From Tetraselmis striata (lineage: Eukaryota > Chlorophyta > Chlorodendrophyceae > Chlorodendrales > Chlorodendraceae), in NCBI GenBank assembly GCA_006384855.1, contig VCJN01002650.1, positions 1-64,000 on the forward strand: a stretch of 64,000 bases of DNA, in the 5' to 3' direction. This document shows, one piece after another, positions 56,545 through 63,890 of the stretch (position 1 is its first letter; every line of letters begins with the position of its first letter). The notes beneath the pieces are model-generated. The model worked only from the letters and a program-made list of their open reading frames with translations. It was not told the origin of the DNA and did no database searches. Position numbers and translations under genes: made by a program.

Positions 56545-59500
56545 TCACCCTTCCTTGGGCGGCTCGGGCGGTGGGGGGACGCGCATCCTGTCTTCCCGCG
56601 GAACCGCCGTGTCCATGTCTCGATTTGATAGTTCGGTGCTCGGGATCGGTGGCAGCGTGCTGCTGGACCTCTTCGCGCGCGCCTTCACATCCAGCGACGC
56701 CTTGCGGTTACGGGGCAGAAGGGGCCGCCCGCCGCGCCTGCTGCCCTCGGAGCTGTTCTGCGACTGGAAGGAAATGGACTGGAGGCTGGTGCTGGTCTTT
56801 GCGTTCTTCCAGCGTTCCACGGAGGCCTTGGAGGAGCTGGTGTGGGAGAGCAGCCTCCGGAGGGTGCCGTCCAAGGGCATGTCTGTGAGGGAGGCGTACT
56901 GCTCGTTGGTTTCCACCAGGCTGCCCGACATCGAGAAATTGTCCATGATGCGCCAGTGCAGGTTGTCCAGCACCGGCGGGGTGTGGTCGGCGCCTTTCCC
57001 GCTGCAGTGCTTCCAGAAGCGGTAGTTGAGCTCCAGCTGCTCCTGCAGCGGGCCCGCCCCCGGGAATGCAGACGCAAAGGCGGTGTACAGCGGAGTGACG
57101 ATGACGTCGAAGAAGCCCACCTGGGGACGCACGGGCAGGTGTGAGCAGCATGCGGCGCCGCAAGCGCACAAGAGCGTTTCAGGTGGCGGGCCATCCTCTG
57201 TGCTGCAAACCCTCAAACTCGACTCTCAGACAACGGGTACCCACGCGGCAGTCCGCACACTGCGAACAGGTTCTGCCCCGCCTGCCAGAGGTCAAATTGC
57301 AGACGAATCGATAGCGGCTCTATAGCAAATGTTCTTTTAGTGCTTAGTTGCAAGCCCTATTTGAGGCCTAATCTATGGGTGGTTATAGGTGCGTCGGCAC
57401 CTTTGGGCAGCGGCGATGGCCAGCGGTGATACACAGTGCTGGGGATGCAGATAGTCACATGTCAGTTGCCGGCGGGCGGGGCGCGGGGGGGGGGGGGGCG
57501 CATTGGGCGTGCACCTGGTTTCCAGGGTGCGTGGTGCCTGGCTTTTCGCGATCCATGAGCGGGCTGATGTCAAAGCCCGCCTTGCGCTCAAGATCGCCCT
57601 GCTGGAAGAACTCCAACTCCAGCTTGCCCACCCAGTAGCAGTGGCTGCCCAGCCTCATGGCGCAGTGCCCGATGTCCGCCACCTTGAGCGCCATCTGCAC
57701 CGCCATCTCCACAGACTTCTCGTTGCTCATCACGTCCGCGAGGCAGCTCTTGTCCATCTTGTTCAACAGCTGCGTCTGGAACTTGCTGAGCGACTCAAAG
57801 TGCAGGGACATGTCGGTGGACAGCACCAGCGTGGTCACCTGGTGTCGAAACTGCAGTGGGCAGGGGCGGCAGAAATACGGTTAGGCGAGCCCCACCCGCA
57901 AGGCGGACAAATAGCAAGCAGGGCCAGGCAATCAACTGGGCACCAGGCGTCAGCGGTCGGGTGCTCGGGAGTAGGCTTTGGAGTTACCGTGATCCAGTCG
58001 CGCTCTGTCCCGATGGCGGATCCTGCAAGGAAGTTCATGCTGGCCTCCTGCACCATGTTGAGCGCCATGCGGATGCTGTGGTTCTCGATGACGTGCTGGT
58101 CGTTGAACTGCTTGGCAATGATGCCCTGGTTCCGCACCACAAAGCCGTTGTTCGTGCCGGGGTGGTTGAAGTCGTGCACGGCCGCGGCGATGACGGCGGT
58201 CAGGAAGCGCATGGATGTGCCGGTGCCCATGAAGTTGAGGAGGTCGGTGTTTCTCAGGACGCAGATGAGCCTCTGGAGCACATCCGCCGCGTGGTACATG
58301 TTGTGGTACTGGTTCTCCATCACGTATCCGTCCTCGATGGCCATCAGGTAGCACTGCAGCCTCTCCACGTTGAGCCTCAGCCGCTACACAGTGGGCAGGA
58401 AAGATGTCAGAATATTCTGAATGAGGGCGCTAAGGAAGTCCATCCATCCATCCATCCATCCATCCATCAAGTATCAATCCATCAATCTATCAATCCATCA
58501 ATAAATAAACAAATCAATAACTAAATCCATCAATAAAGAAATCAGCAAATAAACCATCCATCAATACATCAATACATACATGAACAGATAAATAAATCCA
58601 TCCATCCATCAATCAATAAATCGCGAAGCGAAGGGAAAAGAGGGGGGGGGGGGGGGGATTCGCAGTAAGCCTGGCGCCACTGTGAATAGTCACTGTCGCC
58701 CGCATACCTGGATGGTTCCTGACGTGTGCAGAACGTAGAACGCTACGGTGGTCAGCGGCCGTTCGTCCGTCATCTGCTGCAGGCAGAGGACGTTGCAGAA
58801 GTAGTCCTTCCCCACTGGCTCTAGTACTTCCAGGAGCCGCTGCGGCACAGGGCCCGGCGGGATCAGAGCATGCGCGAGTCGCAATCGAGGGCAGGGCGGC
58901 ATCGCACGCGAGGGGCAATAAGAGCACAAGCGATGGTGACCAATACCTGTGTGTAAACACCTTCCTTCAGCCAGGGGGCTGGTAGGTTCTGCAGGGCCTC
59001 CTTGCTGCCCTGGGGAAAGCCATCGACATCTTCATCCACCAAGGGCGCACCCAATGTGGAATCACCCCAGCTGCCCTGCGACGCGAGACCTTCCCGGCGG
59101 GAAGAGCTCCCCGACTCGATGTCGGCCGCGCCACTGATGAGCTGCGAGAACTTTGTCGAGCGGGTGCGCGACAGGCGGCGCTTTAACTGGGTGTCTTGCG
59201 AGCTCGGTGCAGCAGTGCCAGAGTCCTGTCATGCTGAGCAAATACTCCGCGATCTGGTCAAATTGCCATGTGCGTTTGACACACATGTCAGCACGCCATC
59301 CCATGCCAGGGCATACTTACGGCAGAGCATACTGTTGCATTTTGCTGTTTTATGCTCTCCCAAAATATATCCCAAAATCAACAGGAGATCACCACAATAA
59401 CTGCATGTTTATTCCGACTCGGTGTTGCAGGACACCTGATGGCTTTTTCGGGGACCTGTGAACCCAATTGAGCGGTACTGGTATGTGCAATCATACTTGT

Positions 59501-61648
59501 CCACATGCCCCATTGCTTGGGGCAAACTGGAGCGCACCCCCGGGACGCGGCGTCTGTCACTGTAGGCACTTTGAATGTCTGGACTGGGAAAGCGGGTAGG
59601 AGCGGGGGACGGGGGTAGGGTCACCTGGTTGTTGCCGTCGTTGTACCGGTCCAGCGCACGGCCCATGTTGGGAGCCTGCGGCACGCACATTGGCACAAAG
59701 AATCGCTTAGACAGCAGCGGCGGGAGGCGCAGATGACTTTCCGCACATTGGTCAGGGACGGAACTGCATACACAGGCCAGCCACGTCGCACACAGGCGCT
59801 CGCACACACCCACACACCCACACTCAGGCGCCCTCACAAACACACACACACACACACGCACGCGCATGCAGCATGCATGCATGGATTACATATATTCTGC
59901 AACTAATCTAGAGCAATACGACTCTGGCCCAGGAATCACCAGAAACAGCTCCAACTGGCACCAGGACGTGGTCTGTACAACACTTATTACAAGCCCATAG
60001 ATTAATAAATGTATGGTTACCGCAATTGCCCAGCTGCCCCCGAAATCCATATGCTTCCATTCCGTACATCCTTCTTGACATACTCTTCACGCCGATACTG
60101 CACCGCGGCTATGCGGAGTCGCCAGAATATTACTGTGTCGTAAGCTGCACGGTTGCGCCTCGTACAATCGTGGTATTCAAGCAGCAATGTTGCCCTCAAA
60201 CGTGCTCCACGGTATGCCGTACGCCCTCGTGGTCGCATTTTATACATTGGTGGATGCCATGAATGCCGGCGGCGGGGTGCAAAGCAGTGACCGACTGCAC
60301 ACTAGAGCAGAACTCCGACATCAAGGGAAAAGCAAAACGTATGCTAAGGGCGGTCACGGCAGATGTAAAGCGGCAGCCGCGCCAACAATACGCCTGGGGA
60401 GGGAGGAGGGGCAAGGGGGGGGGGGGGGGGGGGCGGTCACCCGGTGCACATCGTCGGTCTGCTCAAGGATTTCCAGAAGAGCCTCGGCCTCGCACACTCG
60501 GACCGGCACTTTATTGGTGATTCTCTGCGGAAGTGATGCACGCGGGGCTATCAAATTCCCAGGTACGCTGCTTCAAACCCGCCGGCAGCCCAGAGCCCAG
60601 GCTGCGGCAGTGCAACAGCCACCACGAGCAGCGCAGTGGCGTTTCCGAGCGAATTTTTATTTGCATCAGTGGAATAAAAAGCAAAATATAATTCTCTGCT
60701 GTGGATTATAAGTGATGACTTCTTGTGCCTCTCACCCCTCTCCAGTTAAACTTCTCTGAGCCTTAAGAACAAATTCACCCGGAACAAATTTGGAACAAAT
60801 TCACCCGGAAATATATACGATCAAAATTTCACATGCATTAACATATTTCTTTTACTTTTACTCCATTTTCTGTACAAATTATTCTCTGTTAGTTCTGGAA
60901 TACCTAGCAAGTGTATACTCTCACCCTGTGCTCACAGTATGCAACATTGCTGGGGGGGCGGAGGCGCTGAAGTGTGCGCAAGTGGGCGGACAACCACCTG
61001 CAGCAAGCTGACGACCTTCACGATCGGCGCGGTCAGGTCGATCGCGCTCGGCTCATCCTCCTCACCGCTCTCCGAACCGCTGCTGCTGCCTTCCAGCTCC
61101 TGCGTGAAGCGGCCGACCTCATCCAGCAGGTTGACTCGAGTGAGGCGCTTGGTGAGCGGCTCCTTCACCTGCTCCCAAATCCGCGAGGCCGCATTGGACC
61201 CCCTGCCAGGCTCCTCGGAGGCGGCAGTGCCTGCCGCGCTGTTACCAGCTGAGGACGACCATGTCACCTTGACCAGCTCCGCCTCAGCGGCAACCCGCCG
61301 CCTAGCTCGCAGCAGGAACAGGAAGGGGAGGGGGATGAACACCCCAAAGAGGCATGCTGCCACCGGCACCAGGACCAAGGGCCACAGTGGCCAGGGAAAG
61401 GGCGTCTCCGAGCACGGCTCCGGCTCCGGCTCTGGCTCCTCCGGCTGCTGCGCACAGGTGGCCAGGCCGCACGCCGTGGCGGCGTCCGGGCCGCTCATGG
61501 CCCAGGCTTGGTGGCTGCAGAGGTGGGCCATGCCGGGCGCGCTCATGACGCGCTCCGCAACGCCGCTGGATAGCAGCCACTGAACAAACCGGCCGAGCGC
61601 ACTCTGCAGAGCGACACATCCCGGGAACATGCATGAGCCAAGGAAGGG

Positions 61649-61684
<36 letters not shown>

Positions 61685-63890
61685 CTTCCCGGTGGACATT
61701 GTGTGCCAAAATGCTACGGCACAGGATGCATCCCTGGCAGGACCGCTGACAAGGCACAGGACGTGTCCCTTTTTGAGATAAGGAAGTAGCAGAAACATGC
61801 ATGTTTTTTTTGTATGGGCTTGTAAGCCCTTCTCCACCCGTCCAGTGTCTCTCGAGGGACGGATTGGGAGGGGGAAAGGGAGGGGAGAGGGGGCAAAAAG
61901 GGGGGGGGGGGGGGGAAATTAAGCTGCAGATCACTGCGGCACCAGGTGCAAAGAAGGGGACTGTTTGGGGGCTGGATAACCCGCGCACCACCGCGGTGTG
62001 GGATTGACTGTGGCATGCATTGCTTTATGGTTGGTTTGGCGCGGAAGGCCTAGGAGCAGGCCTTGCCTGCTCAGGAGACTCCGGCGCCCCCTGCCTGTAA
62101 AGCAGCGAAGCTGCGGAGGCCAGGGGATAGCAGCCAGCAGCTGTGCGGTTGAGCTGCACTAAGGCCGGGCCTGCGGTCCCAGCGCTCATCAGACAAGCCT
62201 GCCGAGGTCGCACAAGGAGAAAAGTTTACCGGTTTGGGGTAGGGGAAACAGAAGGGGGGAGCGGGGGGGGGGGGGGGGGGGGGCTGGGGGGCTGTCTATA
62301 TACGTCAATGTGGGGTCGATGACAGCCAGCACTTACTGTGCACTACGCAATACAAAACCCCACTGCTGACAGCATAGTTTCCAGACAGGGGCGGGGCCCA
62401 CCTCTATGTTTTGGCGGGAGGGGGCCACATAGGCTGCATCAGCGTGGGATCGCAAGTCTGCGGTGATCAGCCCTGCCGGCACCGCCGCTGACAACGGTAC
62501 CACCGCCAGGGTGTTGGGTGTGCGGCCCACGGCATCAAGCACCATGGCGTGGCTGCTGACACACGCCACACCCGGCGCGCTGTCACAAAGGCGATCCCAC
62601 GAGATGCTCCGATCATCGACGAGAAAGCCCTCCTGTGGCAGGGCAGCAAGTAGGGGTGTCAGCCGCAGAGGCGCAATCATTTCATCATGCACCTCACCTG
62701 CCGCGGTAGAGGCAGGGAGTGGCGCATGTAGGTTCTTGTTATCGTCTGCGCAATTGGCATCTGTACCCGGTTATTCCGTGTGCTGAATTTGCTCCCGATG
62801 AGTTGGCTCACGATAGCTTCACATGAGATGAACATGCAACGGACATGTTGTTGCAAGGCTCGTCATGCACGCGAATGTATATCTGTGTGTCTCAGCGCGT
62901 ACCTGAATGCGTGAGTGTGTCTCACATCAAGGTGAGAGGGGGGGGGGGGGGGGGGGCACCATGTCCGCCTTGGGACAGCACAGTTGAGCCTCACCTGCAT
63001 CACTGACCGCAGTTCCGCTATGTCGTCTCTATGTAGGACCACATTCACGGCGGCGCTGCCCTCACCCAATGCTGCCTGGCCTGCAGGGCGCACATCCTCC
63101 CAGCTGACCACGTCCCTGCCGATCCGGATCGCAGCCCAGTCTGTCAGGACTGATGGCATGGCCATTTTTGGGGCGAAGCAGCGATAACGCAGTACCGGCA
63201 GGGTGGATAGGAGAGTCTGGGAGCGCACCCTGAGAGGATGCCTGCCAAGGAGCTGGCGTCCAGTTGCAGTCCGTCCACCCCTGGAAGGTTGGCAATGACA
63301 GCGAAACCGCTGAGCCAAAGCGGGGCCGCCTGGAACCCCGCAGGCGGAGCGCCGTGCGAGCACACTCGAAAGTGCTCCTATACAACAAAGGCAGAGGAGT
63401 CAGCAAGATAGCCACCTGCTATCACGTGAGACCAATGGCCGCGGTTGCGGACGCTGCACATCATAAGCAGATAAAAACATATAGCAGATCCCCCCCCCCC
63501 CCCCCCCCCCCTGCGCCCCCTGTAGCATGAGGGCAATGTAGCAGTGTCAATGGCCCCGGGCGCACCGCATCCTGCAGAGGCTCTGCACAGCTCGCTGTCA
63601 CAGCAGGCTGAACCTTGATCTGCGGCAGCACAGGAAAGGCCACAACCTGATTGAGAACAGAGCCCCCCCCCCCCCCCCCCCTCTCCCTCATCGCCGGAGG
63701 CAACCATTAAAACAGCCCTGGTGAGACAACAACATGCAGACACTGAAGTAGCAGGCGAGTGGCGCTCGGGGCTGCGTCTGACCTCGGCATTGGGCTCGCT
63801 GCTGGTGGCATACACCGTTGACAATGGCGACAGCAAGGTTGCGGACCCGGGTGAGGCTGTCCCCGCGATGCTTGTCGTGGTGCACCAGCC
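56545..63890 (-). CDS. receptor-like cyclic-nucleotide phosphodiesterase with PstS-like ectodomain (5' end beyond window)
   Basis: Exons in gene order: 63783-63890, 63566-63646, 63229-63377, 62995-63149, 62402-62632, 62067-62198, 60998-61603, 60441-60524, 59625-59675, 58947-59225, 58708-58839, 57988-58383, 57515-57850 and 56545-57120; about 1104 aa in the window. The first exons resemble a type 2 periplasmic-binding (PstS-like) domain: LSGFAVIANLPGVDGLQLDA, SSLAGILSG, LTDWAAI, AAVNVVLHRDD, GCYPLASAASLLYRQ. One membrane helix follows (WPLWPLVLVPVAACLFGVFI), then a cytoplasmic linker, then a class I PDE catalytic domain with YHNMYHAADV, HDFNHPGTNN, KVADIGH and the invariant glutamine in NQVGFFDV; it should hydrolyse cAMP and/or cGMP. 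Phases agree everywhere except between 63229 and 63149, where one base is extra. The intron after 62067 starts with GC (CAG|GCAAGG). Confidence 0.88.
57233..57402 (+). mobile_element. MITE-like element, copy 9 (PDE intron)
   Basis: Left end ACGGGTACCCACG, then GAACAGGTTCTGCCCCGCCT, AGAGGTCAAATTGCAGACGA and GGTTATAGGTGCGTCGGCAC at right. Lies in the intron 57121-57514, antisense to the PDE gene. Confidence 0.65.
58436..58622 (+). repeat. (ATCC)n / (AATC)n microsatellite in PDE intron
   Basis: CCATCCATCCATCC tracts mixed with AATCAATC and AAATAAAT words in the intron 58384-58707, followed by a poly-G tract at 58642-58657. Confidence 0.9.
59836..59862 (+). repeat. (CA)n microsatellite in PDE intron
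   Basis: ACACACAC tract in the intron 59676-60440, in a wider CACACCC-rich stretch. Confidence 0.8.
61651..61681 (+). repeat. long poly-G tract in PDE intron
   Basis: About 30 G in the intron 61604-62066, about 50 bp upstream (in transcript terms) of the TM-encoding exon; poly-C on the sense strand. Confidence 0.9.

Follow-up and report, generated by a model that had tools for sequence, protein, structure and literature searches.

A candidate single-pass class I phosphodiesterase with tandem PstS-like ectodomains in the green alga Tetraselmis striata

Results and discussion

The window analyzed here is a 64,000-base stretch of Tetraselmis striata DNA (bases 1-64000 of contig C2138, VCJN01002650.1, which has 258,093 bases), and its minus strand carries a gene for a class I phosphodiesterase (PDE) that extends beyond the right end of the window. 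We judge it likely that this gene encodes a single-pass receptor-type enzyme whose tandem PstS-like ectodomains, of the type 2 periplasmic-binding-protein class, let a small ligand or a partner tune the hydrolysis of cyclic adenosine or guanosine monophosphate (cAMP or cGMP). The order in the gene model is a signal peptide, PstS-like domain 1 (beyond the window), PstS-like domain 2, a membrane helix, a juxtamembrane block, and a complete class I PDE. This predicted architecture is well supported, as the DNA and its translation establish the chain of exons, the matches to the domain families, the intactness of the PDE motifs, and the homology that ties the helix to the PDE exons.

A sequence-only reading of the window had proposed a PDE that crosses the membrane once and carries a PstS-like region outside, and the presence of PBP_like_2 and PDEase_I matches in one model with one strong helix supports it. 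The peptides, helix, and PDE motifs it quoted were found where it placed them, and its end points 63890, 62067, and 56545 coincide with exons L to Y. Its further proposal of a one-protein sensor stands in part, as it is plausible that the protein couples an outside ligand to the breakdown of cAMP/cGMP, while phosphate as that ligand was not supported. In the mechanism we favor, a small ligand or partner protein would close one or both outer domains, the closure would shift the helix and the juxtamembrane block, perhaps within a dimer, and the shift would raise or lower cAMP/cGMP hydrolysis by the inner PDE. The readings weighed below are not mutually exclusive.

Gene model

The searched assembly comprised 224 Mb in 2903 contigs, and the DNA examined for the gene model was the gene's part of the window plus 10 kb past its right end. 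A single match to the Rubisco small subunit, closest among solved structures to 7jfo from Chlamydomonas (E 5.2e-50), marks the genome as one of the green lineage. The gene was modeled with 25 exons (A to Y), from a start at contig position 68633 to a stop at 56545. Exons L to Y lie inside the window and exons A to K at 64070-68633, so that the 5′ exons expected to the right were recovered, and the first PstS-like domain, the signal peptide, and the start codon lie beyond the window. The joined exons form a single frame of 1426 codons with one stop, and there is no N in the stretch. The Pfam scores for the whole model and the hydropathy numbering refer to a 1424-residue version, two residues shorter than the final model. 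All 24 acceptors are AG, the donors are 22 GT and 2 GC, and 20 of the 24 introns are phase 0. The GC donors follow exon N (GGGT/GCGCTC, forced by phase) and exon Q (CAG/GCAAGG). The exons had been described earlier as phase-consistent, which holds if these two GC-AG introns are allowed, although the chain then given was incomplete because the gene continues past the window. A version of exon M ending at LQ was replaced by one ending at an in-phase GT, since no GT donor was present there; an extra exon between A and B was also considered, which the alignments do not require. By eye, exon U has an alternative start at 59186.

Several features of the model weigh against it. The exons were chosen by eye to fit, the two GC-AG introns are needed, and the end of exon M is uncertain, with a poly-G run in the stretch on to 63378. 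With codon usage trained on four PDE exons, the chosen frame ranked first in 10 of the 21 other exons (3.5 expected by chance) and last of six in exon I. Other sense frames of the same exons were also open in 17 of 50 cases; openness of short exons therefore proves little, and the case rests on homology. Both halves of the ectodomain matched this locus alone in the genome up to E 0.1, so that no second copy was available as a cross-check of the ectodomain exons. The weak codon signal, together with a G+C content at third positions that is 0.84 in exon R but ranges from 0.31 to 0.71 across exons A to I, could be read as an ectodomain part in decay, a pseudogene in progress; we regard this as very improbable, as the 25 modeled exons contain no stop or frame break. 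Upstream of the PDE gene, a pair of similar stretches separated by about 1.3 kb was noticed by eye at L010:7600-9400, perhaps a dispersed repeat.

Catalytic domain

The gene encodes a class I cyclic-nucleotide phosphodiesterase, with cAMP/cGMP hydrolysis predicted from its domain content. PDEase_I (PF00233) matched with E 5.6e-60 and 203.5 bits (cut-off 24.8) over profile positions 1-237 of 238, and with E 1.4e-58 in the whole gene model. Class I PDEs are marked by HNxxH, HDxxHxGxxN, a metal Asp, and an invariant Gln, and the corresponding motifs YHNMYH, HDFNHPGTNN, VADIGH, and NQVGFFD are intact here and aligned with PDE4A. The nearest solved relatives were PDE4A (E 7e-46) and PDE4D (4e-45), followed by PDE1B and PDE7A.

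The domain is spread over four exons, all on the minus strand like every other part of the gene. Exon V (58708..58839) holds the N-terminal part of the catalytic region, and its junction with exon W lies inside one open frame of another PDE locus, L023 (model residues 945-1116). Within the PDEase_I match, exon W (57988..58383) carries YHNMYH (58291-58308), HDFNHPGTNN (58147-58176), and ENHSIR (58069-58086), and exon X (57515..57850) carries VADIGH (57665-57682) and ends with the codon for the invariant Gln of NQ/VGFFD. Exon Y (56545..57120), placed by PDEase_I, the alignment with PDE4A, and the gene model, contains the end of the domain, the tail, and the stop.

Ectodomain

In the gene model, domain 1 contains SFPYAATALVPTYNIS and LILSPELLYQIWTCELQQWDDSELLRINP, with EWPMMGLFWMLVQQL and NFAGLPRSTAARVVEQL towards its end. 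Domain 2 begins with exon L (63783..63890; AG acceptor, GT donor, phase 0), and exon M (63566..63619), whose end was set by the in-phase GT, belongs to its first lobe. Exon N (63227..63377), which carries GFAVIANLPGVDGLQLDASSLAGILSG and ends at the first GC donor, and exon O (62995..63149), from LTDWAAI to NVVLHRDD, both fall within the PBP_like_2 match. Exon P (62402..62632) was placed from the gene model, exon Q (62067..62198) carries GCYPLASAASLLYRQ and ends at the second GC donor, and the domain is completed at the start of exon R.

The PstS-like region claimed by the sequence-only reading was confirmed with two kinds of profile. Against the whole gene model, Pfam PBP_like_2 (PF12849, cut-off 27 bits) scored 38.3 bits with E 1.7e-9, compared with 23.9 bits and E 4e-5, under the cut-off, when the window exons from N onward were joined. 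An independent profile built from E. coli PstS, C602, and C1091, with no sequence of the PDE gene, scored the joined ectodomain at 51.2 bits, with domain 1 reaching 40.3, domain 2 15.7, and the cytosolic part -2.1; the best of 2000 shuffles (866 listed) had 3.5 bits. The same profile, run over 2496 six-frame stretches of 74 kb, returned three matches up to E 1. The two best, at 65227-65571 (E 5.8e-5) and 63950-64219 (E 0.0085), are the minus-strand exons E and K of domain 1 in the correct order, and the third lies elsewhere (71788-72138, plus strand, E 0.96).

Comparison with solved structures pointed to the same family. The ectodomain had 13 matches up to E 5. PstS or phosphate-binding proteins made up 11 of them, with a best E of 5e-4, and aligned mainly to domain 1. 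When a profile was built from six algal domains, of which two belong to the PDE gene, it matched 31 distinct chains at E 1 or better, with a best E of 6.5e-35, and the first 18 were all named phosphate-binding or phosphate-transport proteins; the strength of this result is partly due to the contribution of other algal genes.

The single domains gave a less even picture, and here the evidence counts against the two-domain assignment. PBP_like_2 scored 17.7 bits (E 0.0033) on domain 1 alone, under the cut-off, and 27.9 bits (E 2.6e-6) on domain 2 alone, over it by a narrow margin. None of the domain 2 exons taken singly appeared at E 1 in the independent-profile scan of the 74 kb. A two-sequence, two-domain profile (A2) found no PstS, perhaps owing to poor alignment, its one match up to E 1 being unrelated (E 0.82). 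Which domain is the clearer one depends on the profile, domain 2 with Pfam and domain 1 with the independent profile, and domain 2 as modeled lacks part of its first lobe.

Ligand site

Phosphate had been suggested as the ligand. The contact residues of both domains were compared in an alignment that also included PstS of E. coli K-12, the C602 and C1091 proteins, and a bacterial protein from contig C606. The phosphate contacts of E. coli PstS were taken to be T10, S38, D56, R135, S139, G140, and T141. At these seven positions, domain 1 has S, S, E, P, T, T, and Q, keeping one of seven (S38) with mild changes at T10S, D56E, and S139T, while domain 2 has P, S, A, R, A, E, and L, keeping two (S38 and R135). 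S139, G140, and T141 are altered in both domains alike. Each of the two domains of C602, from the same genome, has T, S, D, R, S, S, and S (5/7 kept), and C1091 domain 1, which covers the last four contacts, has R, S, G, and S (3/4 kept). The PstS-like protein of C606, which by eye precedes a PstC-like frame, kept only one of seven in the same alignment. This control shows that a genuine phosphate binder can be overlooked, whether through the alignment or through the contacts chosen, and the contact test is therefore weak.

These residues suggest a likely loss of the phosphate site in the PDE ectodomain, and the ligand is probably not orthophosphate held in the canonical PstS manner. That the ectodomain binds orthophosphate like PstS and so sets PDE activity is quite improbable in view of the 1/7 and 2/7 contacts kept, as opposed to 5/7 in each C602 domain, and of the changes at S139, G140, and T141 in both domains; its best structural relatives are nevertheless phosphate-binding proteins, and we did not rate phosphate sensing lower because the bacterial C606 control failed the contact test too.

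The mostly altered ligand-site residues in both domains, like the missing part of the first lobe in the modeled domain 2, would also fit ectodomains that are no longer small-ligand sensors and serve dimerization, adhesion, or membrane placing of the PDE. We consider this unlikely, given that the two-domain layout has been retained over about 650 residues and that in C1091 a different enzyme seems to be combined with this layout. Regulation of the PDE by a ligand or partner at the tandem domains remains our preferred explanation.

Predicted membrane helix and link to the enzyme

Hydropathy maxima of the gene model lie at residues 8-32, which resemble a signal peptide, and at residues 674-706. 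The latter region corresponds to the single predicted membrane helix, whose core at 61310..61378, LVLVPVAACLFGVFIPLPFLFLL followed by RARRR, reaches a Kyte-Doolittle (KD) maximum of 2.41 over 19 residues. The predicted topology is a signal peptide, the ectodomain outside, one helix, and the enzyme inside; a weak third hydrophobic window at 526-544 (1.72), within domain 2, speaks against it.

The helix lies in exon R (60998..61603), a 606-base open stretch that also encodes the last part of domain 2 before it and the first part of the juxtamembrane block after it. Beginning at IDLTAPIVKVVSLLQ, still within exon R, the block runs via exons S (60441..60524), T (59625..59675), U (58947..59225, a linker), and V to the PDE exon W. 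Alignments to the PDE loci L022 and L024 span exons S, T, and U. In the C578 PDE gene, the block matched model residues 793-1108 with E 4e-23 in a single open frame, and in the C1567 PDE gene it matched residues 793-1064 with E 3e-17, also in a single open frame. Since the block and the start of the PDE share one frame in both genes, homology connects the exon that holds the helix with those of the PDE. The helix itself is in the same open frame as the block in C578; in C1567 it is 359 bases upstream in a different frame. A point on the other side is the low similarity in the S to U part of these alignments.

The alternative would be two adjacent genes, one for a tandem PstS-like protein that is anchored in the membrane and stops after exon R, the other for the PDE. 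Exon R is able to continue into a stop, and the introns between R, S, T, and U have 473, 765, and 399 bases. Against such a division, the juxtamembrane-PDE block of C578 and C1567 begins with the sequence that closes exon R here, and the exon phases fit. We rated two genes as very unlikely because of the juxtamembrane homology, and a single receptor-type PDE gene is assumed in what follows.

Related loci in the genome

Genome-wide, 86 PDEase_I matches and 68 guanylate-cyclase matches were found; both were counted exon by exon, are lower bounds, and include likely haplotype duplicates. A helix-like segment (KD > 2.5) was present within 3 kb upstream in six of 10 other PDE loci (L004 and L022 to L026) versus one of 10 on the opposite strand, and at KD > 2.0 in seven of 10 (L006 added) versus three of 10. 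These counts leave out L002, L003, and L005 as likely duplicates of L001 and L004 and are not a census, as L022 to L026 were picked for similarity to the PDE gene, the other five were scanned over only 0.8 to 1.5 kb upstream, and the frames counted at L025 are mostly low-complexity. Among the PDEs of this genome, an upstream helix thus appears to be common.

ANF_receptor matches upstream of a PDE on the same strand exceeded the cut-off at C1968 and C1825, the latter likely a second haplotype of the former, and fell below it at C554 (weak) and C1567 (E 0.0017). At C1567, C1968, and C1825, the ANF_receptor domain and the PDE presumably belong to one gene. L024 (C578, 1407-5689, minus strand) is itself a receptor-like PDE with a signal-peptide-like start, an ectodomain, a helix, and a PDE; by eye its ectodomain resembles a type I binding protein, and the scanned 278-residue frame had no Pfam match. 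At C1671:137502-141616 (minus), ANF_receptor matches also lie immediately upstream of matches to guanylate cyclase on that strand, likely a receptor cyclase.

The PBP_like_2 search of the genome gave eight matches on four contigs (C606, C602, C1091, and C1466) and nothing at the PDE gene, whose single exons score below the first look of that search; further diverged members may consequently exist unseen. The matches on C606 and C1466 were set aside, as both contigs are bacterial by eye. They carry long intron-free bacterial-looking frames (PstS-like then PstC-like at L021 on C606, a LysR-type regulator at L019 on C1466), and the assembly seems to include bacterial contigs. At C602:132535-135931 (minus; L012), there is another tandem PstS-like protein, whose domain 2, joined by hand, matched PBP_like_2 with E 1.7e-26. 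On C1091, PstS-like domains, a helix, and a glutaminase apparently form one gene at both L015:5032-9057 (plus) and L017:4817-8801 (minus), with E 9.1e-44 for glutaminase (PF04960) and E 7.9e-8 for PBP_like_2. The contig holds two glutaminase-bearing frames and three PBP_like_2 matches, near-identical by eye.

Tentatively, and somewhat short of an even chance, the tandem PstS-like domains could be interchangeable outside sensors on different enzymes (the PDE here, the glutaminase in C1091) in green algae of this lineage. They would then form a family of nutrient receptors in eukaryotes, with phosphate sensed by those members whose contacts are kept and another ligand by diverged ones such as this PDE.

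Comparison with known systems

Both domains are related in sequence to bacterial PstS and the PBP_like_2 family, and their best solved relatives are PstS proteins. Unlike bacterial PstS, the algal domains are in tandem, membrane-anchored, and fused to an enzyme, with most phosphate contacts changed; PstS is a separate soluble part of the Pst transporter, whereas here the domains are joined by a helix to the PDE in the gene model. With the class I PDEs (PDE4, then PDE1 and PDE7), the gene has the whole catalytic domain and its motifs in common. The usual regulatory modules of animal class I PDEs are cytosolic, and the algal PDE differs from them in bearing a predicted extracellular binding module. 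The contrast drawn with animal PDEs by the sequence-only reading is fair, except that an upstream helix is common in the PDEs of this genome, some of which have another binding domain.

In rhodopsin phosphodiesterase, a light-sensing membrane rhodopsin domain is reported to be connected through a linker to a PDE domain (PMC7644710). The algal PDE would likewise combine a membrane sensor, a linker, and a PDE, but without a rhodopsin as its sensor.

Within the genome, the ANF_receptor-PDE loci C1567 (weak), C1968, and C1825 show the same order of binding domain, helix-like segment, and PDE, and C1567 also shares the juxtamembrane block, but their outside domain is a type I binding domain of another class. 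The C1091 gene, by eye, has the same tandem PstS-like layout outside and one helix, and differs in having a glutaminase inside and in keeping three of the four covered phosphate contacts in domain 1. Because the same layout is likely present above this glutaminase, a family-level test is possible.

Among the titles listed in searches of the open-licence literature, none dealt with a class I PDE of green algae bearing an ectodomain of the PstS-like or any other binding-protein kind. As judged from its predicted protein, the PDE gene is a new variant of a receptor-type signaling enzyme. If confirmed, it would place the action of an outside ligand on second-messenger breakdown in a single protein, with neither a G protein nor a cyclase as intermediary, and would mean that a eukaryote had turned a bacterial domain for nutrient uptake into a receptor module. 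A similar plan is known from BvgS-like bacterial sensors, which have tandem Venus-flytrap domains, then a helix, and then a signaling enzyme. The BvgS-like sensors share this order with the algal PDE and differ in their histidine-kinase output and in the family of their binding domains.

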